Source: Chthoniobacter flavus (GTDB taxonomy: Bacteria; Verrucomicrobiota; Verrucomicrobiia; Chthoniobacterales; JACTMZ01). From it: a stretch of DNA of 44,872 nucleotides. The stretch lies in contig CAMBUL010000014.1 in NCBI GenBank assembly GCA_945871065.1, positions 1 to 44,872 on the forward strand, written 5' to 3'. The position numbers were made by a program, and so were the translations under genes. This document shows, piece after piece, positions 16,053 to 36,644 of this stretch (its first letter is position 1; every line of letters starts with the position of its first letter). The notes below the pieces were generated by a model. The model saw only the letters and a list, made by a program, of their open reading frames with translations. It was not told the DNA's origin and did not search any database.

Positions 16053-16134
16053 TGCTCGGGAAGGGAGTCGAACCCTTACTCCTTACGGAACCAGATCCTA
16101 AGTCTGGCGCGTCTGCCAGTTCCGCCACCCGAGC
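16053..16134 (-). tRNA. tRNA-Leu (anticodon TAG), integration target of the element
   Basis: Class II tRNA with acceptor GCTCGGG/CCCGAGC, anticodon loop CTTAGGA within stem CCAGA/TCTGG, a long variable arm and T-arm AAGGG-TTCGACT-CCCTT. Its 5' half (up to the anticodon loop) is the left copy of the 43-bp att repeat, while its 3' half is chromosomal. The gene is complete, but everything upstream of its 5' end, including its promoter, now belongs to the inserted element. Confidence 0.95.
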
Positions 16135-16138
16135 GATA
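16096..16138. repeat. attL (43-bp core repeat, left)
   Basis: Identical over 43 bp to 36602-36644. It includes the tRNA-Leu 5' half from the anticodon loop to the first base, plus 4 bases upstream (gata). Identity stops on both sides (a/c before, a/g after). Confidence 0.95.
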
Positions 16139-16173
16139 AATTCTTATTCATCTGATAGAAAGCGACTTACAGA

Positions 16174-16179
16174 ATAATA
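16174..16179 (-). promoter_or_regulatory. Possible -10 element supplied by the mobile element to tRNA-Leu
   Basis: On the minus strand ATATTATTCTG lies upstream of tRNA-Leu inside the element. The original chromosomal upstream region (36652-36657, beyond attR) carries ATATTATCCTG. The shared TATTAT core suggests that the element brings a replacement promoter, though it is 39 bases rather than 11 bases from the tRNA. No clear -35 was seen. Confidence 0.3.
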
Positions 16180-16210
16180 TGAGCATACTCCCGCAAATTT
16201 ATTTTGCCAT

Positions 16211-16238
16211 TGTGCTACGGAGTGTGCTTCACTTGGCC
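16211..16238. repeat. Sub-terminal repeat, left copy (possible integrase arm site)
   Basis: A 28-bp stretch (tgtgctacgg followed by agtgtgcttcacttggcc) that recurs near the right end at 36460-36486 with one base missing. It contains two tgtgct units and lies directly before the integrase ATG, so it could bind integrase or autoregulate it. Inference only. Confidence 0.6.
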
Positions 16239-16239
16239 C

Positions 16240-17487
16240 ATGAGCACTCCTCGCAAAACCACCCGGAAAGTCACCCCCGAGACCAAGTTCGTTCCGGTCT
16301 TCCACAAGAACGGCCACCGCATTGAAGGCCTTTGGCAGCGCGGTTCCCGCTTCTACGGCCAGCTCCGAGTCCTCAAGAACGGGATAAAGCGGCCCACCAG
16401 AATCGCGCTGAGGGACGCCAACACCGTACCCCAAGCCGTGGAGAGGCTGGCCGAGGAGCGGCAGAAGAACCGCGAGGGCGAATTGGTGATCATCCAGCAT
16501 TCCCCCAAGCTAATCGACGCCATCAAGCAATACAAGGAGAGCACCAACTGGAAGCTCAAGCGGGAGGCGACCAGAGTAAGTGACAGAGGTTACCTGAACC
16601 GGTGGACCGTCGAGTTGGGCAACCAGAAGGCGGACAACATCCAACCGGCCATGATCTACGGCGTCCGCGACAAGCTCTTCACCGAGGGCAAGCACCCGAG
16701 GACGATCAACCTCTACGTGGGCGGACTTATGCAGGTGCTCCGCTTCTGCCATGAACGGGGCCAGCTCAAGCGTGTCCCCAAGATCGAGCGTCTGGAGGCA
16801 CCCAAGCCGCGCCGTCAGAGCTACTTCCCGGACCATCTGTTTGAGCAGCTCTTGGATAATTGCCGGCCCGAGGTGAACAAGAACGCGCCTCAGATGCGGG
16901 ACTTCCTCCGATTCCTCGCACTCACTGGAACCCGAGAGCAGGAGGCTACGGCCATCGCGTGGCGCGACATTGATTTTGAGGGCCGGCGCGTGGTGATCGG
17001 GGCGAACATGGAGACCAAGAACGGCGAGACCCGCGACCTCGACATGAGCGACGAGCTGATTGAGCTGCTCGCCGAGATGAAGGCTCGGCGGCAACCGGAT
17101 TCACAGTGGCTCTTCCCGTCTCCGCAACGGGGCAAGAAGGACGAGCACGTGAAGAACTTCCGCGCCTGTCTCAACGCCGTGCGCGGCACTCCGCGACCCA
17201 TCACCAAGGCGTGGAAAGGCCGGCGACCCAAGACCGAGGAGGTGAACAGTCAGCTCGCACACGTGGGCTTTCATACCCTCCGGCACCTCTTCATCTCCAA
17301 GTGCGTCATGGCCGGCGTCCCCTACATGACGATTGCCGAGTGGGTAGGCCACCAGGACGGCGGCGTGCTGATCGGCAAGGTCTACGGCCACCTCTGCAAA
17401 GATCACAAGGCGGACATGGCGAAGAAGCTCAGTCTCTTCAAGAAGCCCGAGAACGTGGTCGAGCTTCCACAACAAGCCGCCGGCTGA
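16240..17487 (+). CDS. int: Tyrosine recombinase (integrase)
   Basis: A 415-aa phage-type integrase that would catalyse site-specific insertion and excision at tRNA-Leu. It has a basic N-terminal arm-binding region, a SAM-like core-binding domain (about 95-185) and a C-terminal catalytic domain. Catalytic residues are Arg232 (TGTREQEA), Lys260 (METKNGE), His345-x-x-Arg348 (HTLRH), His371 (WVGHQ) and the nucleophile Tyr382 (GKVYGHL). All are intact, so it should be active. The ATG at 16240 is preferred over one 36 bases earlier because the extension is repeat sequence. Reading away from attL is the usual arrangement. Confidence 0.93.
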   Translation: MSTPRKTTRKVTPETKFVPVFHKNGHRIEGLWQRGSRFYGQLRVLKNGIKRPTRIALRDANTVPQAVERLAEERQKNREGELVIIQHSPKLIDAIKQYKESTNWKLKREATRVSDRGYLNRWTVELGNQKADNIQPAMIYGVRDKLFTEGKHPRTINLYVGGLMQVLRFCHERGQLKRVPKIERLEAPKPRRQSYFPDHLFEQLLDNCRPEVNKNAPQMRDFLRFLALTGTREQEATAIAWRDIDFEGRRVVIGANMETKNGETRDLDMSDELIELLAEMKARRQPDSQWLFPSPQRGKKDEHVKNFRACLNAVRGTPRPITKAWKGRRPKTEEVNSQLAHVGFHTLRHLFISKCVMAGVPYMTIAEWVGHQDGGVLIGKVYGHLCKDHKADMAKKLSLFKKPENVVELPQQAAG

Positions 17488-17698
17488 ACACCCATCTAGT
17501 CAAGAGGGCGGCGGAGGGGGTTCGCAAATCGTTGAACATCAATACCCTCCGACCGAATCCCTTGGATGGCTTTTTCGGCAAAAGACTATGACACACGCAG
17601 GGCTCGCTTTGGCGTTGCTGAACCTAGCTTAGAAGCCTTGAATACGAGCGAGGCTGCCGGATTGCCCAGCAATCATGGCGCCGATGTGAAATTCTCTA

Positions 17699-18916
17699 AT
17701 GGAAATTCTTGTCTTAATAGGAATCGTCGGCGCGATCGCCCTGTGGATCTGGATCACAGTGCTTAAAGACAGAGCCGGCAGATACACTGACCTTCGCAAG
17801 CAGCACGATGAGTTATGGAAAAAAGTCAGCGACATTGATGAATACGCCCGCATAATTAGAAACGAAGTTGCGCAAGAGCGCTCGGCGATGAGGACGGAAC
17901 TGGCCGCAGACCGCCTCAAACTCGATGCAAGGGAGCGAGCCTTAGACGAGCAGGTGGCAGCGGTTCAGAGGATTGCTACGGAGAAATCGGTTGGCTTCCC
18001 TTGGTTGGCTAAAGCATATGCGGATTTCTTTGCGCTCGAAGACGAGCGCATCGCGGACTCCTTGAAACGTAAGCAGAGGCCTGCGCGGAAATCCGCCGAA
18101 TTGGTTCAGGAGGCCAAGAGGAGGAGGCGCGATGCAGAGATCCGCGCAAGAGTCGCAGAGTACCAAATTCAATACTACGAATCTCTTTTCCCGTGGCTTG
18201 TAGACCTAAAGAGCGAAGACCTTGAGGACGCCGCTATCAGCCTAGCGGCCCCGGCAAACCTAGAGGGGGGCGCCGAGGAAGACCCCGCAAAACGGTGGCT
18301 TTCCGAGCAGGAATACGCCGCGATGCCTTCAGCGGAAAAATTCCAAAGGGCACTCGACAGATATTGGACGAGCAGAAAATCAAAATGGCAACTGGGTAGA
18401 GACTACGAGCGATACGTGGGCTGGCTATACGAGAAAGACGGCCACGCCGTCAGCTACCACGGAATTATTAAGGGCTTTGACGACCTTGGCAGAGACCTTT
18501 TAGCGACCAAGAATGGCGCTGTCCAAGTGGTGCAGTGCAAGTATTGGAGCAAGGAAAAGACCATCCACGAAAAACACATCTTCCAGCTCTACGGAACAAT
18601 GGTGGCTTACGGCCTCGATAACCCCAACGAACCTGTGAGCGGGCACTTTGTCACGTCAACATCCCTGTCTGACCGTGCCAAGAAGTTCGCAGAATACCTA
18701 GGTATCCACGTTACAGAGCAGCGGACGTTGGAGCGGTATCCTTGTATTAAGTGCAACATTTCCGAACGAACTCAAGAGAAGATCTACCACCTGCCTTTCG
18801 ACCAGCAATACGATTCAACGGTCATTGAGCCAGATCGTGGAGAATTGTTCGCTGCAAGCGTGGCAGATGCTGAGGGTCTTGGCTTTAGAAGAGCATTTAG
18901 GTATCGCGGCGCGTAA
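17699..18916 (+). CDS. Membrane-anchored coiled-coil protein with Mrr-like restriction endonuclease domain
   Basis: A 405-aa protein with three parts: an N-terminal transmembrane helix (residues 2-22), a long charged coiled coil (about 28-150) and a C-terminal PD-(D/E)xK nuclease of the Mrr_cat type. The nuclease shows Glu237 in GRDYERYVG, Asp266 in GRDLL and Gln279-Cys-Lys281 in QCKYW, with a HGIIKGFDDLGRD lead-in. The catalytic set is intact. Mrr-like enzymes cut modified or foreign DNA; anchoring to the membrane suggests that DNA is attacked at entry. The 211 bases upstream hold no recognisable gene. Probably defence cargo of the element. Confidence 0.8.
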   Translation: MEILVLIGIVGAIALWIWITVLKDRAGRYTDLRKQHDELWKKVSDIDEYARIIRNEVAQERSAMRTELAADRLKLDARERALDEQVAAVQRIATEKSVGFPWLAKAYADFFALEDERIADSLKRKQRPARKSAELVQEAKRRRRDAEIRARVAEYQIQYYESLFPWLVDLKSEDLEDAAISLAAPANLEGGAEEDPAKRWLSEQEYAAMPSAEKFQRALDRYWTSRKSKWQLGRDYERYVGWLYEKDGHAVSYHGIIKGFDDLGRDLLATKNGAVQVVQCKYWSKEKTIHEKHIFQLYGTMVAYGLDNPNEPVSGHFVTSTSLSDRAKKFAEYLGIHVTEQRTLERYPCIKCNISERTQEKIYHLPFDQQYDSTVIEPDRGELFAASVADAEGLGFRRAFRYRGA

Positions 18917-18937: not shown

Positions 18938-19423
18938 ATGCCCCTCTCACCCCTCGACCAGCTTCATCTAAACACCGCCGCCGGCTTCCTCCAGATCGGC
19001 GAGCCGATGGATGCCTGGAACGAACTGGAGATGATCGCGCCGCTCAACCGGGCGAAGACTGAAGTGCTCACCGTGCGCCTCGCCGTCTGCCGCGCCCTCA
19101 AGGATTGGGAGCAAGCCGAGGAGATCGCCCGCACGCTCATCCGGCGTGAACCCGGCAACGTCATGCACGTCGTCGCTCTGGCCGAAGCCGTGGGTCACCG
19201 CGAGGGGCCGGCCGCTTCGGCGGCAGTCTATGAGTTCGCTATCGTGCAGTTTCCCGACTTTGCACCGCTGCGGGTGTCGCTGGCGGTGGAATTGGTGAAA
19301 GCGGGGCAAATCCAAGACGCCAAACGGGTTGTGAAGATGGCGTGTGAGCTAGACCCGGATCTGAGGCTGGTGGTGCTGGATCATCCGGGGTTGGACGCCA
19401 TATGCTTAGAATCTTGTTGTTGA
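18938..19423 (+). CDS. TPR-like helical repeat protein
   Basis: A 161-aa protein built of paired helices with TPR spacing ([76 protein letters not shown]). No signal peptide. It is probably a protein-protein adaptor. It starts 21 bases after the nuclease gene and stops four bases before the DnaJ-domain gene, so the three probably form an operon. Confidence 0.7.
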
Positions 19424-19427: not shown

Positions 19428-20780
19428 ATGCAGCGTATCCCCACCCACTACGACACGTTGAAAGTCGCGCAGGACGCGCCGACCGAAGTCATCAAGAGCG
19501 CCTATCGCGCACTTGCTAGGAAATACCACCCTGACAGCAATCCCGACTTGGAGGAGGCCGTAAAAGCGATGCAGGCCCTCAACCAAGCTTTTGAGGTGCT
19601 CATCGATCCGGTCCAGCGAAAAGCGCACGACGAGTGGATAGACCAACAGACGGCTAGCCAGTCAGCAGGAGCAAGCCGCCAACCATACCGAGACGCTGGC
19701 ATTTCCTCGGCAAAGAATCGGCAGAAAGGTCATGCACGCAAATCTCCTTTCGCGGGCCAATTTTGGCCAAAGGCAGACAAACTTTCGCCGAGCGCCGTTA
19801 TGCTCATTGTGGCTTTGGCGGCCGCTTTGATCGCCCTTGTTGTTATCGCGCTAGAAACTCAAGGCAGATCATCCAAAACAAGGGCGCCGGCCAGCGAGTC
19901 AACACCGTTGCCGACTCCCGCATTTACACCTACGCCCACACCCATTGCCACACCGACAGTCACACCGACTCCATCGCCAACTCCGACTCCAACTCCGACT
20001 CCAACGCCAGAGCCAACGCCAACACCTACGCCCACACCGACGCCAACACCAGAGCCAACACCTACACCCACGCCTACGCCTACACCGACACCTACACCGG
20101 CGCCTGCATTGGCCCCAAGACGAGGATTCACAGCCTACTCCGAAGCGATAAACATCGATTTTGGAGTCGGAGGCGCCCAGCGCCAACTTCGTAAGCGCGA
20201 GTTGGCCGGGTTATTTCGTTCATCCAAGTGGAACACCGCATCCGGAGCATCCGGAACGATGTCCAACCCGGTCACGAGCCAGGGCAAACCGACGGCGGCG
20301 GTGATCAGTTGGTCTGCCAACAACCTTTACCAAGTGCAGGACGTGAGAATCGGTGACGACGACGGAAACTTCACCATGATGTTCGGCTATCTGGACACGG
20401 CCAACACCTCCACCACCGAAGTCCGTGTCGAAAATATTCCCGAAAGCTTCGTCGCCGACGGCTACGACCTGATTGTCTATGTCGATGGCTCCAACGGTTC
20501 GCGGAGCCGCGTGGGACTCTATGAGGTCGTCGTGTCGGGGCGCGAACCGGTGACGAAATTCGTGAAGGACGGCGCCGGCAAATCCTTCGACGGCAAGTTC
20601 GTCGAGGCGGACACGGCAACGGCGCCAACAACGGCAGCCGATGGCATTCAGGGGAATGCGATAGTTTTCCGAAACATGAAGGCCCGCGAATTTGCGCTGC
20701 TGGCAAAAGGGGAAATCGGAGAGGGTTTTAACCGCGCCCCTATCAACGGGATACAAATCGTGAAGCTCGCCGAGGAATAA
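19428..20780 (+). CDS. DnaJ-domain membrane protein with Pro/Thr stalk and exported C-terminal domain
   Basis: A 450-aa chimera. Residues 5-70 are a J domain with intact HPD (34-36), which stimulates Hsp70 ATPase. A transmembrane helix follows (about 121-142), then a Pro-Thr dipeptide repeat stalk (about 158-225) and a C-terminal domain (about 228-450) of beta character, with [25 protein letters not shown] and [21 protein letters not shown]. Similar C-terminal modules occur in exported proteins of Verrucomicrobia and Planctomycetes (memory of the pattern). The topology implied is J domain inside and beta domain outside the membrane. Its partner Hsp70 is not encoded nearby. Confidence 0.75.
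19908..20104 (+). repeat. Pro-Thr coding tandem repeat
   Basis: Short units of the type ccgacgccaaca and acacctacgccc encode the PT stalk of the DnaJ-domain protein. The same kind of repeat, in opposite orientation, encodes a stalk at 35154-35280. Such repeats can expand or shrink by slippage. Confidence 0.85.
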
Positions 20781-22440: not shown

Positions 22441-22566
22441 GCCTAACGACCAAGCTCAGCGACCGCCGCCGGAAACGCCCGGTCGGCTGCAACAATCGCT
22501 GCCAAATTACCTGAACCGACCAACTGCCCAGCGGGGCGGCGGTTCGCTGCAGCGCTCTGGTTAGAC
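22441..22566 (-). repeat. attC site 2
   Basis: On the minus strand the site runs from R'' GTCTAAC to R' GTTAGGC (126 bp); both boxes fit the consensus RYYYAAC...GTTRRRY. The L arms GCTGCAGCGAACCGCCGCC and GGCGGCGGTCGCTGAGC pair with extrahelical bases, and an inner GGTCGG/CCGACC stem is present. The TAA stop of the PEP-CTERM gene lies inside the R'' box. Confidence 0.88.
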
Positions 22567-23229
22567 GGCATTTTTCAATCTCCGTCTCCTTGTGGCTATG
22601 AAAACCAGCAAGCAACCTGAAAACAGTAGCGCATAGGCTGAAGGCTCTGGAACTGCCATGACCTCGATGCGCGTAATGTCCCACGAAGTTCCAGATGGGC
22701 CGCCCTGATAAACTCTGAGAGTGCGAATCTCGCTCCAGTCTGGCTCGGGCGCGTTCGGACTAAACCAAGCATCGGCTAATGACACCCAAGTATTCTGGTT
22801 GCCACCTTTCTCAAAAAGACCGCCTTGATCGAAGATGGACCATGAAGAGCCAAAGTGAGCAACCGTAAACCAAGAGTCAAAATCTGATGGTGCGTCTGTG
22901 CCACTGATGCGAATAGATGAGCCAGGCCCTAAGCTCAGACCGGTGATGTCGTACTCAAAGGAAACAAACGCTTGGGTGTTTGGCAAATTTCGGAGAGAAG
23001 CCATCCCGCTACCGATGTCGAGGGTCACTGACCCGATACCCGACTGTGCTTGGAATGTCACCTTCCGCTGCCCACCGTAAACACCAGATAAGCCGCTTGC
23101 AGTGTCGGTGATGCTTTGATTTGGCGCTGCGACATTGAAGTGGCGTGTGCCTTGAGAAAAATCATCAATCAGGGCGATCTGGGCCTGCGTGCCTGTGATA
23201 GCAGCGAGAAGCAAGAGTAGTGATTTCAT
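22561..23229 (-). CDS. Cassette-borne PEP-CTERM exported protein
   Basis: A 222-aa protein with a signal peptide (MKSLLLLLAAITGTQA), a beta-rich body (IDDFSQGTRHFNV; SFEYDITGLSLGPGSSIRIS; WFTVAHFGSSWSIFDQGG) and a C-terminal sorting signal: VPEP, a hydrophobic helix and the arginine cluster RRRR. This tripartite tail is recognised by exosortase, which cuts it and anchors or releases the protein outside the cell. The ATG at 23229 follows attC 3 by 35 bases. An earlier in-frame start would lie inside attC and was not used. Confidence 0.85.
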   Translation of the reverse strand: MKSLLLLLAAITGTQAQIALIDDFSQGTRHFNVAAPNQSITDTASGLSGVYGGQRKVTFQAQSGIGSVTLDIGSGMASLRNLPNTQAFVSFEYDITGLSLGPGSSIRISGTDAPSDFDSWFTVAHFGSSWSIFDQGGLFEKGGNQNTWVSLADAWFSPNAPEPDWSEIRTLRVYQGGPSGTSWDITRIEVMAVPEPSAYALLFSGCLLVFIATRRRRLKNAV

Positions 23230-23264
23230 TGGAGTGGTGACATGGTTCGTGGCGATGTGATGCC

Positions 23265-23379
23265 GTCTAACGTCCGCGACCACCAACAGCCGCTTGCTTC
23301 TGGCGCGACTTCTTGCGTAAGCAAGAATCGTGACAGAAGTCCCGAAGGGACGGCTGTTTGGTGCATCGCTCTGTTCGCA
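23265..23379 (-). repeat. attC site 3
   Basis: A 115-bp site. On the plus strand GTCTAAC begins it and GTTCGCA ends it. The arms GCGACCACCAACAGCCG and CGGCTGTTTGGTGCATCGC pair with extra bases on one side. The centre is a long imperfect hairpin ending in TTCTTGC-gtaa-GCAAGAA. The R box next to the upstream gene is degenerate compared with consensus. Confidence 0.8.
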
Positions 23380-23380
23380 T

Positions 23381-23854
23381 TTATTTGAAGAGAGTGGATG
23401 CGGCATATCTAGCAATCCAAATGAAGGCGACAATAAATGATATGGACAGCGCAACAATCTTGAGCTCGACGGAAGGGCCGTCTGATGGTCGCCTTGCCCA
23501 CTGAATCAAGAAAAACCCCGCAACAACGAGAACTGCACCTACATAGGTGTAAATGTGCTCAGTAGAGCTTTGCCAGAAATAGAGGAAAACAACAATGACT
23601 CCCGCAAGCTGAATTAGCCAACCAAGAATGATTGCTGGTCCGCGGCATATCTCCCGAATTCTGCAAAACAGTTGAGTCTTCTGTAGGGTTGGAACAATTA
23701 ACGATATCAGAATCAAAAAGCAGAATGCTAAGAAAGCATATAGCGCAATGCCCTTTACTTCCTCAGTATTGTCTTTCTTCGTGCAGGAAGCAAGAAGGGT
23801 GAAAACTAAAACGGGGATTGAGGATAAGCTACTTTTTAAGTTCTTTGTAAACAT
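23381..23854 (-). CDS. Cassette-borne lipoprotein/membrane protein
   Basis: A 157-aa protein with a lipoprotein-type N-terminus (FTLLASC) and then about four transmembrane helices (ALYAFLAFCFLILISLIV; AIILGWLIQLAGVIVVFLYF; YTYVGAVLVVAGFFLI; VALSISFIVAFIWIARYAA). The stop abuts attC 3. Base composition is clearly more AT-rich than the rest of the window, which points to a separate origin. It overlaps the upstream small gene by 26 bases. Function not recognised. Confidence 0.6.
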   Translation of the reverse strand: MFTKNLKSSLSSIPVLVFTLLASCTKKDNTEEVKGIALYAFLAFCFLILISLIVPTLQKTQLFCRIREICRGPAIILGWLIQLAGVIVVFLYFWQSSTEHIYTYVGAVLVVAGFFLIQWARRPSDGPSVELKIVALSISFIVAFIWIARYAASTLFK

Positions 23855-24558: not shown

Positions 24559-25683
24559 GTGCCATCAAAGGGCTCGATAGTCCTAACTCAGATGGCCACC
24601 GATGCTCCAACTAAAGCTGCCCGCGAGATGGAACGAGCTCAAGCGCGTGCCATAAAGGAAGAAGCGCGGCGACTCAAAGAGGAGCAGAAGGAGCTGGCCC
24701 GCCAGGCAGCAGAGGCAGAGAGGAGGGCGGCCCAAGCTGAAGTCGAGGCTTTTGAGAGTCATCTCGGCGAGTTGACGGGCGCACACAGGGTCATGCCTCA
24801 GTTCTACAATTGGTCCGCCCAACACTTTTCGCTGCCACCCCACCCGCCGGTATTTCACACAAAGAACCACTTGCGCGAAGCGGTGGAAACCGCGCTTTTA
24901 ACGCAAGAATACGAAGGATTGGAAGGGCGGTTGAGCGTGGCATGGAGCAAGGACGAGCAGTGGTATTACGAAAGCTACAGCGCTTACGAGTTGCGATACG
25001 GACGATGGGCACGGCTAAAAACTCTAGCCCAAGAACTGCATGCGGGAGACGCGAACGCAGTGGTTAATGCTCATGCTGAGTTGGAGGCTCAAGGCTTCTC
25101 GCATGCCGGCACGGAAGGGCTAGTCCTGCAGCCGTGCGATGCTCGGCGGCTCTATGTTGCGCTGCGTGTAGCGGGACGTGATATAACGCCGGGAGAAGTC
25201 AAAACACTCACCCAATCCGGTAAAGTAGCGGTAAAAACGATGGCCAAAAACCGTGCACGCGAAATCTACGAAGATTACGTATGCAGTAGCTGCCTTGCAG
25301 TCGCTCGCCGCTTATTCGGCACTCTTCCGCTGGCCGAAATAATTGTCACTGCGTACGTCCCCAGCTTGAGCGCGATTAGCGGGAATGAGACCGACGTGTC
25401 CATTGCATCAGTTCACTTTACCAAAAAGAAATTTGGTGCCTTGAACTTCGACAACCTAGACCCGTCAGACGCGCTGCAGAGCTTCCGGCATGCTGGCGAC
25501 ATGCGTGCCTCGCGAAGGGGCGAAGACTTTACTCCGATCCGACCGTTAGCATTTGAAAGTGTAAGCCAAAGCGAGTCGCCAGCAGTAGAGGTTCAGTCAC
25601 TCACCGCCCAAATCAAGGCACTGCGAGCGGCCTTCAACAAATTTCAAATCAAAAGCAATCGGACCATTGCTACTGCCCCTTAA
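24559..25683 (+). CDS. Coiled-coil protein of unknown function, partner of the membrane nuclease
   Basis: A 374-aa cytoplasmic protein. Residues about 12-70 are a highly charged coiled coil. A globular part follows with YNWSAQHFSLPPHPPVFHTK, DEQWYYESYSAYELRYGRW and, near 230-310, YEDYVCSSCLAVARRLFGTLPLAEIIVTAYVP and SIASVHFTKKKFGALNFDNLDP. No known catalytic motif was recognised. It stops 14 bases before the DUF4041-like nuclease gene, so the two are probably co-transcribed and may act together. An internal ATG at 24592 is an alternative start. Confidence 0.6.
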   Translation: MPSKGSIVLTQMATDAPTKAAREMERAQARAIKEEARRLKEEQKELARQAAEAERRAAQAEVEAFESHLGELTGAHRVMPQFYNWSAQHFSLPPHPPVFHTKNHLREAVETALLTQEYEGLEGRLSVAWSKDEQWYYESYSAYELRYGRWARLKTLAQELHAGDANAVVNAHAELEAQGFSHAGTEGLVLQPCDARRLYVALRVAGRDITPGEVKTLTQSGKVAVKTMAKNRAREIYEDYVCSSCLAVARRLFGTLPLAEIIVTAYVPSLSAISGNETDVSIASVHFTKKKFGALNFDNLDPSDALQSFRHAGDMRASRRGEDFTPIRPLAFESVSQSESPAVEVQSLTAQIKALRAAFNKFQIKSNRTIATAP

Positions 25684-27549: not shown

Positions 27550-28443
27550 ATGAAAAAGAAGCGACCCCCCAAGAAGTTGTCGCTGCCATCGGAGCCAGAG
27601 CCGGCAGCAACTACTTGGACATACGAGTCGATTAACTTTGAGGTCGCCGCCCGGAATCGCAAGCCGAGGAAGGGCCAAAGTAAAACCAAATGGGCCAAGC
27701 AGGTGGCGGCTATGGCGAAGCGAATGCGCCTTGCACAGGAGGAGCACGACCGAATTCAGCATGAAGTTTGGGAGTTGGTGAACCGCCAAGTAAGCGACGA
27801 GTCTGAGGCGATTAAACTTATCCGTTATCAGTCCGCCGGTCTAACTTCCTATGCGGAGGAGTTACGTAATAAGGCGCTGGCAGGCGACCCGTTAGCGGCA
27901 TTCGCGGCCGATCAACTGTTTCAGGCGACAGAGCAAATGGTCAAAGCCCTGTGCGAGATTGCAGGGACCCGGAGCAATTCGCCGGTGTCGGAATCCGCTG
28001 CTGCAAAGCATGCGGCTGAAGGCCTGCACACCGTCCACGCGCACACACAACGTGAGTTAGAAATGTTGCGCAAGCGGGAAGCTCGCAGGACGCTCGCAAA
28101 ATCTAGCGCCCACTACGACAAGGACTACCGTAATTTCTGCGAGGATGTTTTAGACGCGGCTATGGATCACTTCAGCCGAAGCAACGAGGTATTTGAAGCT
28201 GAGGTTTTACCAAAACATCCGTTTGCTATCGGCAATGGCAAAGCCGCTGATGTGCTTAGGAGCCAATGGGTTCGCCTGCTTACGCGCATCATGAAGCGGA
28301 GGCATGAGGCCGGCGACTTCAAGACTCCCTGGCGTAGTCGTCAGACGCAGACGAGCCGCATATTCAATGAACTGTGGGATGAGCGCGTCGAGGCTCGGGC
28401 ACGCAAGCACACGAGAAAATATAAGCTCAACTTGCCCGAGTAG
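27550..28443 (+). CDS. Basic hypothetical protein
   Basis: A 297-aa soluble, basic protein. N-terminus MKKKRPPKKLSLPSEPE is disordered; the rest is helical, with KWAKQVAAMAKRMRLAQEEHD, DPLAAFAADQLFQATEQMVKALCEIAG, HYDKDYRNFCEDVLDAAMDHF and a C-terminal basic cluster. No enzyme motif recognised. It could bind nucleic acid. It lies between the nuclease pair and the replication operon, 103 bases after the nuclease gene, with a palindromic TTGATCAA in that gap. Confidence 0.55.
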   Translation: MKKKRPPKKLSLPSEPEPAATTWTYESINFEVAARNRKPRKGQSKTKWAKQVAAMAKRMRLAQEEHDRIQHEVWELVNRQVSDESEAIKLIRYQSAGLTSYAEELRNKALAGDPLAAFAADQLFQATEQMVKALCEIAGTRSNSPVSESAAAKHAAEGLHTVHAHTQRELEMLRKREARRTLAKSSAHYDKDYRNFCEDVLDAAMDHFSRSNEVFEAEVLPKHPFAIGNGKAADVLRSQWVRLLTRIMKRRHEAGDFKTPWRSRQTQTSRIFNELWDERVEARARKHTRKYKLNLPE

Positions 28444-28536: not shown

Positions 28537-28920
28537 ATGGACACATATTCCATGCAAACACACGAAGTACCACACGCACCGTTCACTCCTTCCACGCTGT
28601 TTGGCGTCACGGAGTCGGGCGAAGATACAGGCATTGTCCCCGGTCTGATGGCCTTGGACAAATTCATCGAAGGCATCGGCGTTACCCGCGAGACGCTCGT
28701 TAAGTGGCGCCGGCAGGGGCTGCTTGAGACCTGCAACATCTACGGCCGACTCTACGTCACAACGGAGGAGGTGTTACGTTTCAAGCGCAGGGTCATGTCC
28801 GGCGAGTTCGCCAAGTGCATCAAGCGCCCACAACGGGAGCAGCAGCTGGCGGACATTGCCGGCGAGGACAACGACAATGCGGAGTGCGCCTCGGCGGATC
28901 TCGTAAGGGAGGCACGATAA
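28537..28920 (+). CDS. Small helix-turn-helix DNA-binding protein (excisionase/MerR-like)
   Basis: A 127-aa protein with a winged-helix/MerR-like motif in the middle: ALDKFIEGIGVTRETLVKWRRQGLLET followed by the wing NIYGRLYVTTEEVLRFKRRV. Proteins of this size and type act as excisionases or as regulators of replication genes in integrative elements. The stop overlaps the ATG of the replication protein (TAATG), so translation is coupled and the two act in one module. It may bind the nested palindromes just upstream or the repeats at the element ends. Confidence 0.75.
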   Translation: MDTYSMQTHEVPHAPFTPSTLFGVTESGEDTGIVPGLMALDKFIEGIGVTRETLVKWRRQGLLETCNIYGRLYVTTEEVLRFKRRVMSGEFAKCIKRPQREQQLADIAGEDNDNAECASADLVREAR

Positions 28921-31900
28921 TGCACGCCACCGTGGATGGGCCACCGGACAACCTCCTCGACGCTGCAAGGTTCTACCGTGAGCGCCACGGATGGGCCGTA
29001 CATCCCCTGCATGGGCCGGCCGAGGGCAGCGAGAGGGAGAGAGGCAAGAAGCCCAAGTTGGCCGGCTACAACAAGCCGGACTACCAAGGATTGGACACGG
29101 ACGCCGCACTGGTGGCCGCATTCGGTAACGGCAAGGGCAGCAACCTCGGCATCGTGGTGCGTCCGCCCCATGTGGTGATCGATCTCGACAGCAAGAGGGA
29201 CGCCGGCGAGAGCGTCCGCGCATGGCTGGCCGAGCGGCCCGAGCTGGCGGAAGTGCCACGGGAGCGCACGGCCGGCGGGGCGCACCTACACTTCATCTGC
29301 AGGGACGCGCCCAAGCTCGACGGTGGCAAGCAAGTGGAGCAGCTCAACGAGTTCGTCACGGCGGAGATCTTTACGGGTCCGAGCAACATGGTGATCAGTC
29401 CGAGCGTCCACCCGAGCGGCCAGCGTTACGCATGGGAGGTCTTCCGCGAGGACTTCCCCGAGGTGCGCTGGCAGTTCCTGGTGGAGACATTCAAGGCGCC
29501 GGTGCAGGCACGGTCGAAAGGTCGCGGAGACGTGACTACGCTCGACGTGGAGGCATTTGCGAGGGATCTCGGCATCTATGGCCGGCGGATTCCGGGCGTG
29601 GACAACTTGGGGCGAGTTCGCCACACGATACAATGCCCGTGGCATGAATTGCACACGCTCAAGGGGACGGCACGTGAGTCCGGCACGGTGCTCTTTGAGC
29701 CAAAAGATGGTGCTCCGCCGGCCTTTGATTGTCAGCACGCGCACTGCCAGACCAAGACGATCAGTGACGTGATGAGGTGGGCTGAGGAGCAGAAGCACGG
29801 AGTGATCGACGCGCACTGTGCCAAGCAACAGGACAGGCCGGCGCACACGCCACCGATCACCACGATAGACGGCAAGCCGGCGCTCATGCTCCCGTGCGAC
29901 GATTGGACGATAGGACAATTCTCAGACCAACTTGGGCGCATCCTCTCGGCGTCCGGCGTCTACGAGCGCAGCGGCATACCCTTTACGGTCAACGCGACCA
30001 CGCACCAGTGCGAGCCGGTCACGGCGGACTTTCTGCGAACATGGGCGGAGAACTCCGTGGCGTGCTTCACAACACGGGGACACGGGCGCAACGAGTTCAA
30101 GGTCTGCAAGACCATGAGCATCGACACGGCACGGGCCGTGATCGCCTCACAGCAATTCTCCAAGCACCTCAAACCCCTGTCGCACGTTGCAATGGTGCGG
30201 ACGCCAGTCCTACGGGCAAGCGGCGACATTGTGCTACGGCCTCGGGGCTACGACCAAGAGTCCCAAGTCTACACGGCCACGGACGCCATCGATTTTGACG
30301 AGCACATGGACTTCCCCCGAGCCAAGCAAGTGCTCGACGATCTCCTCAAGGAGTTTCCGTTTGCGGAGGACGGCGGGAGGAGCAGGGCCGTGGCGATCTC
30401 CGCCATGCTGGCCGTCTACGGCAACGGTCTGATCACCGCCGGCGCCACCCGCCCGTGCTTCATCTACCTCGGCAACATGGAGGGCAGCGGTAAGACCCTG
30501 CTCGCACGCATCGCGGCGCTACCCTACGGCAATGTCCCGGTAACGGGCGGCCCATCGAAGGACGAGGAGTGGGACAAGCTGCTCCTGTCCATCGTGATCG
30601 GCGGCCGGCGCATCGTGATCTTTGACAATGTGCGCGGCCACCTCGCCAGCCAGCACCTTGAGCGGTATCTGACGAGCAGTAGCTACTCCGGGCGCATCCT
30701 TGGGGTCAGTAAGGAGTTTGAGGGCGAGGCCGGCGCTATTGTCTGCATCACCGGCAACCGTCTGACCGTCTCGCCGGATCTCCGCCGGCGCTCCCTTTTT
30801 GTGGAGCTATTCTGCCATGAGCTTTCCGCCGAGCGGCGAAGGTTCACCCGCATCCTCGATGAGCCAGCACTGACCAAATTGAGGCCGGACGCGCTGGCCG
30901 CGCTCCACGCTCTCGTGCGCCACTGGGACAGCAAGGGGCGGCCTCCGGGGCGCAACAAGCACGCCAGCTTCCCGAGATGGGCCGAGGCCATCGGCGGCAT
31001 CATGGAGGCGGCCGGCTACGCAAACCCCTGCCAACTCCCCGTGATCGATGACATGGGCGACACGGACGCCGCAGACATTCAGACCCTCTGCTCCATGATG
31101 CCGGTGGGGAAACGCTTTGAGTTCTCCGATCTGGCCGAGCTGTGCGTCGAGCATGGGTTGTTTGAGCGGGTCACGGAGCGGCGGGACGGTGAGGATCTCG
31201 ACAAGGCGGCCAAGACGGCGCTCGGGCGGGTTCTCAAGGGCTACCATGCCCGAACCACGGTGGCCGGACCTCCCGCGCTACACTTCCTTGTCCAGGGTAA
31301 GGGACACTCACGGTTCTTCACGATGAAGCCCGCCACCGGCGTACATGATCGACATGATCAACATGATGGTATCGCCAATAATGAAAACACACAAAACCCC
31401 CATAAGCCGCAGGATCATGTTCATCATGCTGATCATGCACCGGACAACACGAATAACGTGAAGTTAAGCACTCAAACCCCACCTGCACCCGTTCGCTACG
31501 TCTACGTCACGTCCCAGGATGTGCTGGCCGAGATCGCCCAAGACCTCACCAAGGCCGACAAAATGCTGGCCTTGGATCTGGAAACCTACGGGCAAGACCC
31601 GCTTAATCCGCGCAAAGGTGAGATCCGCACGCTTACCGTGGCTCGCCGGGGCGGAACCCCGTGGATCATCGACCTCAAGGCCATCGGCTACGACCTCGGT
31701 CCGGTCAAACAGGAGCTGCTCAAGCGTCCCCTAATCATCCACAACGCACGCTTTGACTTGGGCTGGCTGGCCGAGAAGCTGCAGATCCGGCCCATTGGCG
31801 TCGATACGTTGTCCCTCTCCCGTCTGCTCACGGCCGGCACGAATGACGGTAATGACCTCGGTGCAGTGCTCAAGCGCCACCTCGGTGTTGATGCACCCAA

Positions 31901-33197
31901 ACACCTCGGCCGGTCCGACTGGGGTGGTATGATGCTGTTTGAGGATCAACTTGAGTACGCCGCACGGGACGTGGCGCATCTCCATGACCTCGGCGGCAAG
32001 CTGGCGTCCGAGATCAAGGCCGCCGGCATGATGGACGTGATGAGTCTGGAAATCCATGTCCTGCAGGTGGTCCGCAACATGACCGCTACCGGGTTCGCCG
32101 TGGACGTGGGGAGGCTCGGCGCAATCAACACCAGGGCCAGCGCAGAGGCGGGCACGGCAGCCAAAACCCTGCAGGGAAAGCTCGGCCCGATCAACATGGC
32201 CTCTCCCAAGCAGCTGATGAAGGCACTCAAGGGCGCCGGTCATGGCGTGGAGAGCACGGACAACGAGGCGCTGCAGGGCATTAAGGACAAGGAGCTGGCC
32301 GCCGGCATCATAGCCTACCGCGAGTCCGAGAAGCTGGCACAACAGGCGCAAAGTCTGCTCGACGCCACCCACAACGGGCGCATCCATGCGGACTACGATC
32401 CAACCGGCACGGCCACGGGGCGCTTCTCCTGCAAGCGGCCGAATCTGCAGAATGTTTCACGGGGCGAACTGCGAGACTGCTTCATCGCATCCCCCGGCAA
32501 GCTGCTTGTGGTCTGCGACTACTCACAAGTCGAGTTGAGGCTGGCGGCGTACATAGCCAAGGACGAGAGAATGCTGACCGCCTTCCGTGACGGCATCGAT
32601 CTGCACGCTGCCACGGCGGCCATCGTGTTGGACAAGGCGCCGGCTGACGTGACCAAGCAGGACCGACAACTCGCCAAGGCGGTCAACTTTGGCCTCATCT
32701 ATGGGCAGTCCGCCCGAGGTCTGGTGCGCTACGCAAAATCCTTGTACGGCGTTGAGCTGTCCGAAAAACGGGCGCACGAGATCCGCGACAGGTTCTTCCG
32801 GGCGTACGCCGGCCTCGCACGCTGGCACAAGGTGGCAACACAGGATGCCCGAGGATTCGTAAGCGCAGAGGCGCGAACCCTGCTTGGCCGGCGACAGCAA
32901 CTCCTCGACGGCGACTGGTGGCCGCGCTTCACCCGTCTGGTCAACACGCCGGTGCAGGGTACGGCGGCGGACGGCATCAAGAAGGCGCTGGTTCGCCTCG
33001 CTCAGGCACTACCCGTGGGCGCACAGGTGGTGGCAACGATCCACGACGAGATCGTGGTCGAGTGTGAGGAGGCACAAGCGCCGGACGTGCTCGCCATGAC
33101 CAAGACCACGATGATCGAAGGCATGGCGGAGATCGCCAAGGACTGTCCAGTGGAAGTTGAGGGCGGCGTTGGTAAGACTTGGGGGTCCGCCAAGTGA
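28920..33197 (+). CDS. Fused PrimPol primase - AAA+ helicase - DEDDy exonuclease - family A DNA polymerase
   Basis: A 1425-aa replication protein. (1) Residues about 10-220: PrimPol domain with VIDLDS (Asp88, Asp90) and AHLHF (His122, His124). (2) About 235-280: Cys/His cluster (Cys239, His242, Cys271, Cys276), possibly zinc-binding. (3) About 470-720: AAA+ domain with Walker A NMEGSGKT (Lys525), Walker B RIVIFDN (Asp569) and sensor/arginine region CITGNRLTVSPDLRRRS. (4) His/Asp-rich linker about 800-850. (5) About 880-1030: 3'-5' exonuclease, LDLET (Asp886, Glu888), NARFDLGWL, YAARDVAHL. (6) About 1040-1425: PolA-type polymerase, motif A CDYSQVELR (Asp1200), motif B Arg1249/Lys1253/Tyr1261, motif C HDE (1375-1377). 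Every key residue seen is intact. GGGAGG lies upstream of the start. Confidence 0.92.
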   Translation: MHATVDGPPDNLLDAARFYRERHGWAVHPLHGPAEGSERERGKKPKLAGYNKPDYQGLDTDAALVAAFGNGKGSNLGIVVRPPHVVIDLDSKRDAGESVRAWLAERPELAEVPRERTAGGAHLHFICRDAPKLDGGKQVEQLNEFVTAEIFTGPSNMVISPSVHPSGQRYAWEVFREDFPEVRWQFLVETFKAPVQARSKGRGDVTTLDVEAFARDLGIYGRRIPGVDNLGRVRHTIQCPWHELHTLKGTARESGTVLFEPKDGAPPAFDCQHAHCQTKTISDVMRWAEEQKHGVIDAHCAKQQDRPAHTPPITTIDGKPALMLPCDDWTIGQFSDQLGRILSASGVYERSGIPFTVNATTHQCEPVTADFLRTWAENSVACFTTRGHGRNEFKVCKTMSIDTARAVIASQQFSKHLKPLSHVAMVRTPVLRASGDIVLRPRGYDQESQVYTATDAIDFDEHMDFPRAKQVLDDLLKEFPFAEDGGRSRAVAISAMLAVYGNGLITAGATRPCFIYLGNMEGSGKTLLARIAALPYGNVPVTGGPSKDEEWDKLLLSIVIGGRRIVIFDNVRGHLASQHLERYLTSSSYSGRILGVSKEFEGEAGAIVCITGNRLTVSPDLRRRSLFVELFCHELSAERRRFTRILDEPALTKLRPDALAALHALVRHWDSKGRPPGRNKHASFPRWAEAIGGIMEAAGYANPCQLPVIDDMGDTDAADIQTLCSMMPVGKRFEFSDLAELCVEHGLFERVTERRDGEDLDKAAKTALGRVLKGYHARTTVAGPPALHFLVQGKGHSRFFTMKPATGVHDRHDQHDGIANNENTQNPHKPQDHVHHADHAPDNTNNVKLSTQTPPAPVRYVYVTSQDVLAEIAQDLTKADKMLALDLETYGQDPLNPRKGEIRTLTVARRGGTPWIIDLKAIGYDLGPVKQELLKRPLIIHNARFDLGWLAEKLQIRPIGVDTLSLSRLLTAGTNDGNDLGAVLKRHLGVDAPKHLGRSDWGGMMLFEDQLEYAARDVAHLHDLGGKLASEIKAAGMMDVMSLEIHVLQVVRNMTATGFAVDVGRLGAINTRASAEAGTAAKTLQGKLGPINMASPKQLMKALKGAGHGVESTDNEALQGIKDKELAAGIIAYRESEKLAQQAQSLLDATHNGRIHADYDPTGTATGRFSCKRPNLQNVSRGELRDCFIASPGKLLVVCDYSQVELRLAAYIAKDERMLTAFRDGIDLHAATAAIVLDKAPADVTKQDRQLAKAVNFGLIYGQSARGLVRYAKSLYGVELSEKRAHEIRDRFFRAYAGLARWHKVATQDARGFVSAEARTLLGRRQQLLDGDWWPRFTRLVNTPVQGTAADGIKKALVRLAQALPVGAQVVATIHDEIVVECEEAQAPDVLAMTKTTMIEGMAEIAKDCPVEVEGGVGKTWGSAK
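31343..31439. repeat. Inverted cluster of 9-bp repeats within the replication gene (candidate origin)
   Basis: Three direct 9-bp units (acatgatc/g, starts 31343, 31352, 31361) and, 44 bases on, three units in inverted orientation (gatcatg-type, starts 31413, 31422, 31431). The spacer is AT-rich (aataatgaaaacacacaaaa) in otherwise GC-rich DNA. The units encode an HDR/HDQ/HDG and HVH/HAD linker between helicase and exonuclease domains, so a protein-level reason is also possible. Confidence 0.6.
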
Positions 33198-33210: not shown

Positions 33211-36048
33211 CTATTGCGCGGCGTTTCTCCAGAGTCGAAACCCCTGATGGGTGTAGTACACCGTATCCGATGAAACCCTGTTTGTAATGCGACACTGAGC
33301 CGCGCCACTTATATAAGCACCGCCACGCACGACGTAATAGAACGAGAGACCATCAAATCGAGAAAACGTAATCTCCGCAATATTTCCACTCATGTCGTGT
33401 AAACCAAGTTCATTAGATTTTTTCGTGCCTACTGCTTTAAACGACCCTCCAAAAGTGGTGTTAGAATAATACCAACCCAATTCATTTATCCCGCCGACCC
33501 CACTGTACAAGCTTGGCTCGTCCCTTACGCCACCGATGGCCGCCCATTCCCATTCAGCTTCTGTAGGTAAGCGGTAACCGTTAGCGTTAGTGTTATTGGT
33601 AACTCCGCTGCCGTAACCTCGACCACGAAACGGTCCCCCAACATCCGCATATACGGGCTGTAAATTCTCCATTTCGCTTTTGGCGTTGCACCAGCTCACA
33701 GCGTTGTTTTGCATGACCCCATAAGCCGGTAAATTGGTAGAGGTGGAGTTTGTGATTTTCTGTAAGTGACTTACTAAGCCGTCGAATGTGTACCCGTTAG
33801 AGATTGCCCAAGCGTGCACTCGCTGCCAGTCGGCAACAGTGACCTCATACTTACCAACAAAGGCGTTCGACACCGTGCGACCAGCTATCGGCGAGCTCGG
33901 TGTTAGCGTTCCGCCGGCCACGTAAACCATTCCGCTAGGAGCACCTGTTCCGGTTCCGCTAAGGACAACAGACGCACCGCCTCCACTGGCTGTCCATTGG
34001 ATGCTTAGCAGCCCAGGGTAAACGCCGGTTTCAAGCGGCTCAAACGTGATTGGGATCTGTTGAGTCTCGCCCGCGCTTAAAGTTCCGGTCCAAGAACCTG
34101 AGTAATTCGCAGGCACAGCAATGCGTGTGATGGTGAGGCTTTCGGGACTGTTGTTTTTAATGGTGAGAAATAGAGTCTTCATGTCGCCGATCTCGACTGG
34201 CCCGTAATTAAGCGCTGAGTCGATGCTAATTGGCGCACCCGCTATGCGGACGAGGCGCATGCCAACACTCGGCACAATTGTTTGTGTAGGCGAATCGTAG
34301 GCTCCACGGTCTGCTACTGAGCAGCTCGCCGCCCCCGAACGAAAAGATCCGCCACGAAAAGCTCTCCAAGAATCATAACCAAAATCCCAGAGCCATTCGT
34401 CCACATTGCCACTCATATCGTACACTCCCAGCTCGTTAGGGTTTTTTGTGCCGACTGGCTGCGTCTTTCCCCCAGAGTTATCCCTATACCAAGCAATGAA
34501 ATCTGCGTCATTCGACCCACTGTAAACATAGCCTAGGCTTTGTGATCCTCCCCGCGCCGCCCATTCCCACTCAATTTCAGTCGGCAGGCGGTAGCCAGAC
34601 GCATTCGCATTCATGCTAACTCGCGCGAAATCTTCCCGCGCCGGGTTCCCTTCTCGGAACGTCTGTCCGTCCAGTTGAAATGCAGGCTCCAAGCCCTCCC
34701 TCTCGCTCTTGGCATTGCACCATTTGATTGCGTCGTTCCAGCTCACACCACGCACTGGATTGGCCATACCATCAAAGATCGGTGAGCTTTGGAAAGAGTA
34801 CCCATTGCTGGACGCCCAAGCCGACACCAATTGCCATACATCCTGAGTGATCTCGGTTACGGATATTAGGAACGGCGCAACTTTCTCGCCGGATAGCGCA
34901 GACGAGTTCGGCAGCACGCCGCCTGGGACCAAGACCATCGGCGGGACCAGCTGTGGGCTCCATTTCAGCCGATAGAACCCAGATCTTGCATTACCTGTGG
35001 CGTGTTCAAATAAGCCCGACCCATTGTTTGTGGAGACAGCTAGCCAGCCCAAAGACAAATCCGAAGTGTACTCAAGAATGCTCACGCCAGTGTATACCGC
35101 ATCCCAAGAAATGGTAGTACTGCCGGGCGCCCTCGTAATGCGCAAGTCGGGCGTCGACGTAGGCGTGGGCGTCGGCGTCGGCGTCGGCGTTGGCGTAGGT
35201 GTCGGTGTAGGCGTAGGTGTCGGCGTGGGCGTAGGTGTAGGCGTTGGCGTGGGCGCAGGCGTCGGTGTGGGTGTAGGCTGAGGAGTTGACGCGGGGAGTG
35301 CGGCAAGTAGAAGCGCTACTTTCAGCTCGTCTGGGTCTTCGCTTGGCGTCTTCGCGGAATTTTTGGTGACGTAAGCCACGGCCGAAACCAAACCAGTGGC
35401 GATGCTCTTGCGGTAAATTATCGGAGGAGTAGACGCACTCGGGTTGTAGGCACTCTGAGAGCCAAAGGCGGACCCATAGCTGCTCAACGAATTGTATATA
35501 CTTGTGGAGCTGGTCGCCGAGCCATGCTGGCCAGCCTCGTTAATTATCGAAAGCGAGTTGGCCGTGTCCGGGTAAGTGAACCCAAGTCGGGTGCCATCGT
35601 TGGCCTCAATCAAGGTTTGAAACGTGGGCGTGCTAAAAAATTGGCTGTGGTAGCTCCAGTTATCGAGGACGTCTAACCCGACTAGAAGGAAGTCGGGGTC
35701 CAAGCCGCCGTTGACAGTTCGGTTTTTAGTCAGAAACCCGACGATAATGAGCGAGTTGTTAACGATCAGCGGCGGTCGCGAGGCGTAGGAACTGTACGCG
35801 CTGAGCGTGGAATAAGTACTACCGTAAGTAGAATAGCTGTTGCGGATGCTTGTGGAGGAGGAGGCGCTGCCGTAACTGCCAAATCTGTTCCTAATCGAGT
35901 CGCCAACTGTGCTCCGCGAAATAACTCCGAGGAACTGTGGCGGTTCCTCGTCGGAGTACAGCGCGCAACCAATGAATTGATCGAGAATAGTAGCCGGTTG
36001 AGCGAGGGTCGCAGACGCTGTGAGGATTAGCACGAGGAACCAGCGCAT
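33211..36048 (-). CDS. Large exported protein with two FGE/SUMF1-like domains
   Basis: A 945-aa exported protein. A signal peptide (MRWFLVLILTASATLA) supports the start at 36048. The N-terminal region holds two similar Ser/Tyr/Gly-rich modules (SSSTSIRNSYSTYGS...ASRPPLIV and SSTSIYNSLSSYGS...ASTPPIIY). A Pro-Thr stalk follows, then a first FGE-sulfatase (SUMF1) domain ending in the YDMSGNVDEWLWD and FRGGSF motifs, an Ig-like domain (KNNSPESLTITRIAVP...SGTG), and a second SUMF1 domain (NANGYRLPTEAEWEWAA, LHDMSGNIAE, VRGGAY). Bacterial SUMF1-like domains are often ligand-binding C-type-lectin folds rather than enzymes. Convergent with the replication gene, 13 bases apart. Confidence 0.8.
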   Translation of the reverse strand: MRWFLVLILTASATLAQPATILDQFIGCALYSDEEPPQFLGVISRSTVGDSIRNRFGSYGSASSSTSIRNSYSTYGSTYSTLSAYSSYASRPPLIVNNSLIIVGFLTKNRTVNGGLDPDFLLVGLDVLDNWSYHSQFFSTPTFQTLIEANDGTRLGFTYPDTANSLSIINEAGQHGSATSSTSIYNSLSSYGSAFGSQSAYNPSASTPPIIYRKSIATGLVSAVAYVTKNSAKTPSEDPDELKVALLLAALPASTPQPTPTPTPAPTPTPTPTPTPTPTPTPTPTPTPTPTPTPTPTSTPDLRITRAPGSTTISWDAVYTGVSILEYTSDLSLGWLAVSTNNGSGLFEHATGNARSGFYRLKWSPQLVPPMVLVPGGVLPNSSALSGEKVAPFLISVTEITQDVWQLVSAWASSNGYSFQSSPIFDGMANPVRGVSWNDAIKWCNAKSEREGLEPAFQLDGQTFREGNPAREDFARVSMNANASGYRLPTEIEWEWAARGGSQSLGYVYSGSNDADFIAWYRDNSGGKTQPVGTKNPNELGVYDMSGNVDEWLWDFGYDSWRAFRGGSFRSGAASCSVADRGAYDSPTQTIVPSVGMRLVRIAGAPISIDSALNYGPVEIGDMKTLFLTIKNNSPESLTITRIAVPANYSGSWTGTLSAGETQQIPITFEPLETGVYPGLLSIQWTASGGGASVVLSGTGTGAPSGMVYVAGGTLTPSSPIAGRTVSNAFVGKYEVTVADWQRVHAWAISNGYTFDGLVSHLQKITNSTSTNLPAYGVMQNNAVSWCNAKSEMENLQPVYADVGGPFRGRGYGSGVTNNTNANGYRLPTEAEWEWAAIGGVRDEPSLYSGVGGINELGWYYSNTTFGGSFKAVGTKKSNELGLHDMSGNIAEITFSRFDGLSFYYVVRGGAYISGAAQCRITNRVSSDTVYYTHQGFRLWRNAAQ
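35154..35280 (-). repeat. Pro-Thr coding tandem repeat (second copy type)
   Basis: Repeats of the type ggcgtgggcgtc and ggtgtaggcgta encode the PT stalk on the minus strand. They resemble, in reverse complement, the repeats at 19908-20104. Confidence 0.85.
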
Positions 36049-36255
36049 GACCCTCACACTTCGACCGGACCGCCTCCAACGCAAGTAAATGCGCATAAGT
36101 ATTATCACCTATAGTTCGCAACTCTCTGGTGCTGTGTGGGTTGCGGGCAGGTGCGTGCAACGGCCACAAGTAACCCGTGGCAAATGGCGTAGATATAACA
36201 GCATTTAACCACACGCTTTTTGATCTGCATCCCTCTGTTATTCAACGATTTGTGG

Positions 36256-36323
36256 CACTTAAAGCATTAGCAGTAGCCACACTTAAAGAAGTAGCAATCC
36301 GCCGGCGGTGGCCACGCTTAAAG
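36256..36323. repeat. Three cacttaaag repeats near the right end of the element
   Basis: CACTTAAAG at 36256-36264 and 36280-36288 and CGCTTAAAG at 36315-36323, the last two preceded by gcca. Spacing is 24 and 35 bases. The 36049-36601 stretch around them holds no credible gene; it is probably the element's attachment-site arm and control region. Possible integrase or excisionase binding sites. Confidence 0.5.
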
Positions 36324-36459
36324 ATCCGCAACTGCCACGCGAAAGGCAGATAGCGGAAGGGCAAGAGCAGCCGGCATAGACGAGCGGGCCGAAAGCGTAG
36401 CGCGAGGGAGCCTCCGGGCAACCGGTCGTGGGCCTCAAGCGAATCCGAGAAAAGGCGAG

Positions 36460-36486
36460 TGTGCTACGAGTGTGCTTCACTTGGCC
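36460..36486. repeat. Sub-terminal repeat, right copy
   Basis: A 27-bp copy (tgtgctacg followed by agtgtgcttcacttggcc) of the sequence at 16211-16238, in the same orientation, 115 bases inside attR. It contains two gagtgtgct units 12 bases apart. Confidence 0.6.
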
Positions 36487-36601
36487 GAAACTCCTACGTC
36501 ATTTCCCGCGAGGCACTTTCGCCCGTGAAGCCAGTATTCATGCGGGTTCGCGAGCTTTTCTTCTCACGTCGATTCACGTCGATCTTACCCTAAAATCTGT
36601 C

Positions 36602-36644
36602 TCCTAAGTCTGGCGCGTCTGCCAGTTCCGCCACCCGAGCGATA
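36602..36644. repeat. attR (43-bp core repeat, right)
   Basis: Exact copy of 16096-16138. It leaves a 5' half of tRNA-Leu (minus strand, ending in the anticodon loop) next to the chromosomal upstream region of that tRNA, which holds an ATATTATCCTG -10-like sequence at 36650-36660. Confidence 0.95.

Follow-up and report, generated by a model that had tools for sequence, protein, structure and literature searches.

The DNA analysed here (the window, 44,872 nucleotides of Chthoniobacter flavus) raises the question what kind of element lies between two copies of a piece of tRNA-Leu, and how it is fitted to the tRNA gene that it has entered. The first-pass annotation of the sequence had placed an element of about 20.5 kb between exact 43-bp repeats in tRNA-Leu. 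A repeat search of the window recovered a direct repeat of 46 nt (16096-16141 and 36602-36647) with a single mismatch at position 44; its exact core of 43 nt (16096-16138 and 36602-36644) recurs at a spacing of 20,506 bp, just as had been claimed, and a chance origin of this match is ruled out. What the annotation did not contain is the identity of the repeat: it corresponds to bases -3 to 39 of tRNA-Leu(UAG), i.e. the 5' half of the gene including the anticodon. The features at the two ends are the following:

16052-16134, minus strand: restored tRNA-Leu(UAG) (ARAGORN), its 5' half (16096-16134) within the repeat
16096-16138, no strand: attL core, the copy of the 43-nt repeat on the left, covering bases -3 to 39 of the tRNA (repeat search)
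16210-16239, plus strand: left arm-type site, made up of TGTGCT units in imperfect tandem with a 12-nt period (19 nt recur exactly at the opposite end; the tandem repeat scores 7/8, which is not significant by itself)
36456-36486, plus strand: right arm-type site, repeating the left one in direct orientation and placed 116-134 nt ahead of the core (repeat comparison of the two ends)
36602-36644, no strand: attR core, displaced tRNA 5' half adjoining the native tRNA upstream region (repeat and empty-site alignment)
36645-36737, minus strand: native tRNA-Leu upstream region, severed from the tRNA, with a -10-like TATTAT (continuous with the tRNA in the same-genus genomes G004 and G007; promoter score p 0.054)

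The element thus lies on the promoter side of tRNA-Leu(UAG): a new 5' half has been restored beside the integrase gene (int), and the old 5' half stayed behind at 36602-36737, attached to the native upstream region, where the right repeat copy is not recognised as a tRNA gene by ARAGORN. Because the repeat, and hence the end of the element, is the tRNA 5' half, tRNA-Leu(UAG) is separated from its native promoter. In this genome (95% complete) a search with the tRNA region met no second UAG gene: its other matches were the CAA and CAG genes, and the UAA gene lies on C89. With the restored tRNA and the displaced fragment as its bounds and an integrase inside, the element is a tRNA-gene integrative island, and it shares with the islands described in the Islander survey (PMC4383910) the tyrosine integrase, the tDNA fragment repeat, the restored tRNA and a repeat that includes the anticodon loop. 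It differs from the islands as they are described there in that it is the 5' half that has been displaced and that the divergent layout extends across the whole integrase group (see below). By the count of that survey 5'-half placement is rare, with 159 5'-fragment islands among 3,919, the unit counted being islands and not loci.

A comparison with relatives lacking the element, which the first-pass annotation had proposed as a check, yielded uninterrupted sites: in G007 and G004 the two flanks, once joined, align over their full length, with 93% and 89% identity respectively. In G001 the tRNA and the downstream gene are separated by 57 nt. In G002, G005, G006, G008 and G010 other DNA, containing no match to the window integrase, lies between the tRNA and the downstream genes; the stretch read in G003 holds no tRNA and G009 gave no match. 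That the element was found in one genome only, and that there is no direct evidence of excision, would fit a genomic island that has become fixed, in which the cargo is what matters and the mobility genes are relics. We consider this improbable in view of the exact repeats, the intact integrase motifs, a replicase with all its motifs and the precision of the empty sites in relatives at 89-93% identity. The element may still be mobile at present, though no packaging or transfer gene was recognised in it.

The preference for a tRNA 5' half is a property of the integrase type. A search at E 1e-40 retrieved 27 integrase places in 24 of the 374 genomes of the class (L119 and L122 are apparently near copies; L130 is the second integrase of the window's own genome and adjoins tRNA-Leu(UAA)), and in a sample of 377 genomes of the phylum, searched at 1e-25, matches occurred only in the genome itself and in two genomes of the same class. 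At 23 of the 27 loci a tRNA gene (18 Leu, 2 Met, 2 Gln and 1 Arg) stands beside int in divergent orientation with its 5' end toward int, and the only further tRNA in these loci is a more distant tRNA-Gly in that of the window; no tRNA was found at the remaining four. Thirteen loci had longer flanks, and in seven of these a displaced copy of the 5' half (about bases 1 to 38 of the tRNA) closes the element, giving units of 3.4-27.3 kb (20.5, 27.3, 6.1, 6.05, 8.7, 6.4 and 3.4 kb). Six of the displaced copies measure 43, 40, 38, 42, 38 and 43 nt, and the seventh is interrupted (24+17 nt). Every copy ends at tRNA base 37-39, and the duplications occur at tRNA-Leu, -Met and -Arg. No distal repeat was found in the other six loci, some of which lie on short contigs (G572, G448) and others of which were searched to about 38 kb.

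A described parallel concerns archaea: according to a review (PMC8371274), 5'-half sites are in archaea unique to the pTN3-like integrases and are seldom met in bacteria, and the tRNA is said there to be expressed from the integrase promoter. The pTN3-like integrases, as presented in that source, and the window share the 5' half of a tRNA gene as attB, at tRNA-Leu also in the case of pTN3. In contrast to these, the window element is bacterial and carries arm-type tandem repeats and an HTH partner, and its int is not split on integration: the core does not lie within int but ends at 16138, and int starts at 16204 or 16240. A literature search at the level of listings returned neither this bacterial 5'-half integrase family nor this AEP-PolA fusion.

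The attachment regions have a common anatomy as well. Arm-type repeats shared by both ends were found in six of the seven delimited elements, at distances of 46-116 nt inward from the left core and 116-155 nt ahead of the right core. Their best scores are 13-23, where the null maxima are 11-12; G602 has an inverted pair as its best one, the direct pair scoring 12, and in G473 the score does not exceed chance. The spacer between tRNA and int holds a tandem repeat, mostly with a 12-nt period, that is perfect (8/8) in 18 of the 23 tRNA-bearing loci (shuffle fraction ≤0.02 in each) and 7/8 in the other five, including the window, where it is individually not significant. In 15 of the 23 loci (0.4 expected) a box ACTT[AG]C was also seen no more than 45 nt from the tRNA, in 13 cases at 17-19 nt from the tRNA 5' end. 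Toward int a promoter signal is significant across 22 loci (p 2e-5), in the layout TTGAC, arms, second hexamer, with the start codon mostly 6-8 nt further. Toward the tRNA no sigma70-like promoter was found in the 70 nt upstream in the 23 loci (Fisher p 0.91), using a sigma70 matrix of approximate values; because of this a promoter swap follows from the map only. For KplE1, regulation of int via an overlap of the attachment region with the int promoter has been described (PMC2951348). The idea that genes of the element capture the native tRNA promoter was dropped: in the window the FGE gene lies downstream of that promoter, but the ORF nearest attR in the sibling elements has either orientation.

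The genes between the repeats for which a description could be given are:

16204-17487, plus strand: tyrosine integrase, start probably ATG at 16240 (PF00589, 2.4e-19; phrog_1, 6.3e-50; catalytic motifs)
17699-18916, plus strand: Mrr_cat restriction-endonuclease-like protein with a hydrophobic N terminus (PF04471, 2.6e-9; weak 'sunset' domain below cut-off)
18938-19423, plus strand: TPR protein (PF13428)
19428-20780, plus strand: J-domain protein with Thr-Pro repeats (PF00226, 1.3e-18)
22561-23457, minus strand: PEP-CTERM-like surface protein (PF07589 just below cut-off; TIGR02595, 22.4 bits against a cut-off of 16)
24559-25683, plus strand: uncharacterised protein of the phrog_38135 family (PHROG match)
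25698-27446, plus strand: SNIPE / PD-Lambda-1 homologue, hydrophobic N terminus, DUF4041 and GIY-YIG (PADLOC PD-Lambda-1, 2e-108; PF13250, PF13455, PF10544)
27550-28443, plus strand: uncharacterised protein of no family (Pfam, PHROG, PADLOC and further family searches without match)
28537-28920, plus strand: small HTH protein, candidate excisionase (PF12728, 3.9e-5, below cut-off; phrog_66, 0.0026; recurrent in integrase loci)
28920-33197, plus strand: replicase with Prim-Pol (AEP), P-loop NTPase, DNA_pol_A_exo1 and DNA_pol_A (Pfam, motifs and fold; listed as ORF 28815-33197)
33211-36108, minus strand: large protein with two FGE-sulfatase stretches, an ASH domain and Thr-Pro repeats (PF03781, 6.3e-55)

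This inventory agrees with the earlier description of an adjacent intact integrase, a replication protein of the element's own (here identified by its Pfam domains) and an absence of transfer or virion genes. A Pfam scan of 18 element ORFs showed no recognisable relaxase, conjugation, capsid or terminase protein, which sets the element apart from ICEs and IMEs, and with Pfam and PHROG no virion, terminase or lysis gene was recognised, which sets it apart from prophages. The cargo includes a SNIPE / PD-Lambda-1 homologue that contains both DUF4041 and GIY-YIG and has in common with the family, as described in PMC13190303, the N-terminal hydrophobic stretch (here a possible transmembrane anchor), the DUF4041 domain and the GIY-YIG nuclease; against the PDB it gave a single match at chance level. 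This protein, and probably the Mrr-like nuclease, would guard host and element against phages. Weak PADLOC matches of the TPR and J-domain proteins were set aside as repeat or low-complexity matches. The Thr-Pro repeat coding in two genes (window 19910-20105 and 35158-35295) results in long inverted repeats. FGE-sulfatase surface-type genes were seen both in the window element and near the second integrase of the same type in this genome (L153:31-720).

The replicase is the second unusual part of the element. Its start at ATG 28920 is preceded by GGGAGG and gives a protein of 1,425 aa, in which Prim-Pol, the exonuclease and PolA (PF00476) are Pfam matches above cut-off. The P-loop region has the motifs GNMEGSGKT and IFDN and PHROG matches to large phage proteins of unnamed function. 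A structure model of the N-terminal 870 residues had a mean pLDDT of 53.5, mostly below 50 beyond about residue 475, and only the AEP match was taken from it: the best Foldseek match of the AEP fold is pRN1 ORF904 (E 7.5e-6), and NrS-1 is also similar. Since confidence was low for this model in the NTPase part, the term helicase rests on the Walker-type motifs and on the PHROG matches of unnamed function. The PolA part has as its best PDB match 8jrb (an entry named DNA polymerase I), followed by the apicoplast PREX polymerases; an alignment profile (A3) gave no match among PDB sequences.

Nine further full-length fusions were found in seven genomes, all Verrucomicrobia (G048, G066, L077, G470 with two, G485, G550 with two, and G465), besides one in G576 that is cut off by its contig; the loci L076 and L078, from Verrucomicrobia MAGs, are those of G066 and G048 again. 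In the G465 fusion (L101:8207-12982) a BT4734-like_N domain stands in place of Prim-Pol, and one G550 copy (L102:6694-11937) is without part of Prim-Pol and has about 340 aa of extra in-frame sequence, intein-like, at polymerase motif B. In the relatives L071, L072, L077, L096-L099, L101 and L102, GKD and FAN replace Walker A and B, which are canonical in the window protein. By eye, the replicase-bearing elements in L071 and L073 (G048) and L072 (G066) seem to hold type I restriction or other defence-like genes. By tblastn none of 4,490 phage and 141 plasmid records covers 80% of the replicase, the phage and plasmid matches listed concerning the exonuclease-PolA part only. With the single replicase protein neither IMG/VR nor the genome contigs gave a relative; with an alignment (A2), IMG/VR yielded a single weak match over part of the query (L079, residues 10-172) and the genome contigs three loci, all Verrucomicrobia (two patterns only; other phyla are possible).

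AEP-helicase fusions as such are known, e.g. in the PrimPol-PV1 supergroup (PMC5862659). GP55 of lactococcal phage 1706 (PMC12205980) resembles the window replicase in that a single chain combines an AEP primase with a helicase, a 3'-5' exonuclease and a polymerase; the polymerase of GP55 is of family B, whereas that of the window is of family A (PF00476). A C-terminal proofreading family-A polymerase after a P-loop helicase-like region is shared with the Pol polyprotein of pyrovirus OS3173 and with PREX (PMC7689252), and OS3173 has, in the same account, Cas4-like nuclease and helicase genes nearby, like several replicase relatives. The description of OS3173 Pol in that source names DUF927 and primase/helicase motifs and not an AEP domain, whereas the window Prim-Pol is backed by Pfam and by fold.

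Cas4-like nuclease and PIF1 helicase genes lie beside several replicase relatives, a GpA terminase occurs in L096, and one G470 fusion is near a phage terminase. These settings of the replicase (PIF1 helicase; GpA terminase for L096) look viral, as would be expected if the window element were the remnant of an L096/L097-type temperate phage in which int and replicase were retained and the virion genes lost. We hold such decay to be decidedly improbable, in that no virion remnant was seen in the element with Pfam and PHROG, two examined replicase relatives adjoin other recombinases (in G048 one of the serine type, next to tRNA-Glu; in G066 a tyrosine integrase, close to tRNA-Phe), and int and the HTH gene accompany small elements of several replication types while the HTH gene is present in none of ten replicase-relative loci.

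The HTH counts come from a profile built from four of these proteins, which detects the gene in 11 of the 13 integrase loci, seven of them outside the seed, and gave no match in 11 other loci (the ten replicase relatives and L153); the protein found no match among plasmids. In the window the HTH stop overlaps the replicase start as TAATG, and in several loci the gene lies ahead of replication-type genes, with an overlap of 8 nt in G473. The int-HTH pair recurs while the replication genes differ among the elements: rolling-circle REP_ORF2-G2P (G602, G609), DUF5906/primase-helicase (G473, a weak match), AAA_25 helicase-like (G469, G528) and a weak DNA polymerase match (G612), where for G609 and G612, which have no distal repeat, the replication gene is near int and not within a delimited element. 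We take the HTH protein to be a candidate excisionase, i.e. a putative directionality factor.

The first-pass annotation had offered 'satellite or integrative plasmid', and its second half fits the element. A phage satellite would be excised on infection by a helper, copied by its own replicase and packaged in helper virions, and it could draw on a satellite-like sibling in G469 (L147:8177-11255, same integrase type, tRNA-Met, 8.7 kb) with matches to TerS, scaffold and ClpP-like head-protease proteins, on the anti-phage SNIPE homologue in the window element and on the terminase near this replicase type in G470. Packaging or capsid-remodelling genes, as in PICI-like satellites, are present in that sibling, but no packaging, capsid-size, capsid or terminase gene is recognised in the window element, and no helper phage is known; we therefore regard a satellite as possible, if somewhat unlikely.

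It is probable, in our judgement, that the window holds a 20.5-kb integrative replicon at the 5' half of tRNA-Leu(UAG) that works as follows. Int would pair attP with attB, with strand exchange in the anticodon loop, and the arm-type repeats are placed where binding of Int would also regulate int. The HTH protein would act as directionality factor, and the overlap of its gene with the start of the replicase would cause both excision and replication to be switched on together. The excised circle would be copied by the all-in-one replicase. In the integrated state, transcription of the tRNA would have to start in the short spacer between tRNA and int or come from antisense to int, and candidate routes from cell to cell are packaging by a helper phage, mobilisation in trans and transformation.

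In size the element is an ordinary island; two of its parts are unusual, namely a group-wide 5'-half integration system and an AEP-NTPase-exonuclease-PolA replicase. New beyond the first-pass annotation are the 5'-half target, the integrase family, the four-domain replicase related to phage-type proteins and the SNIPE-type gene. More tentatively, with a confidence slightly short of even, we propose a verrucomicrobial family of integrative replicons in which one int-HTH module serves tRNA 5' halves, insertion takes over an often single-copy tRNA (a built-in addiction) and replication cores are freely swapped, the core in the window being a single-chain AEP-NTPase-exonuclease-PolA replisome that would copy the circle with little help from the host. 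According to published accounts the tRNA keeps its promoter with nearly all bacterial tRNA-targeting elements, and this integrase group consistently takes the 5' half. The dependence of the host on the element becomes directly testable, as a tRNA would fall silent if the spacer between tRNA and int were lost or decayed. The single-chain PolA replicase places a second polymerase family beside the recently described four-in-one replicases and is a candidate for amplifying DNA with no primers supplied. Finally, the family supplies integrases with predictable tRNA sites for a phylum that is poor in genetic tools.
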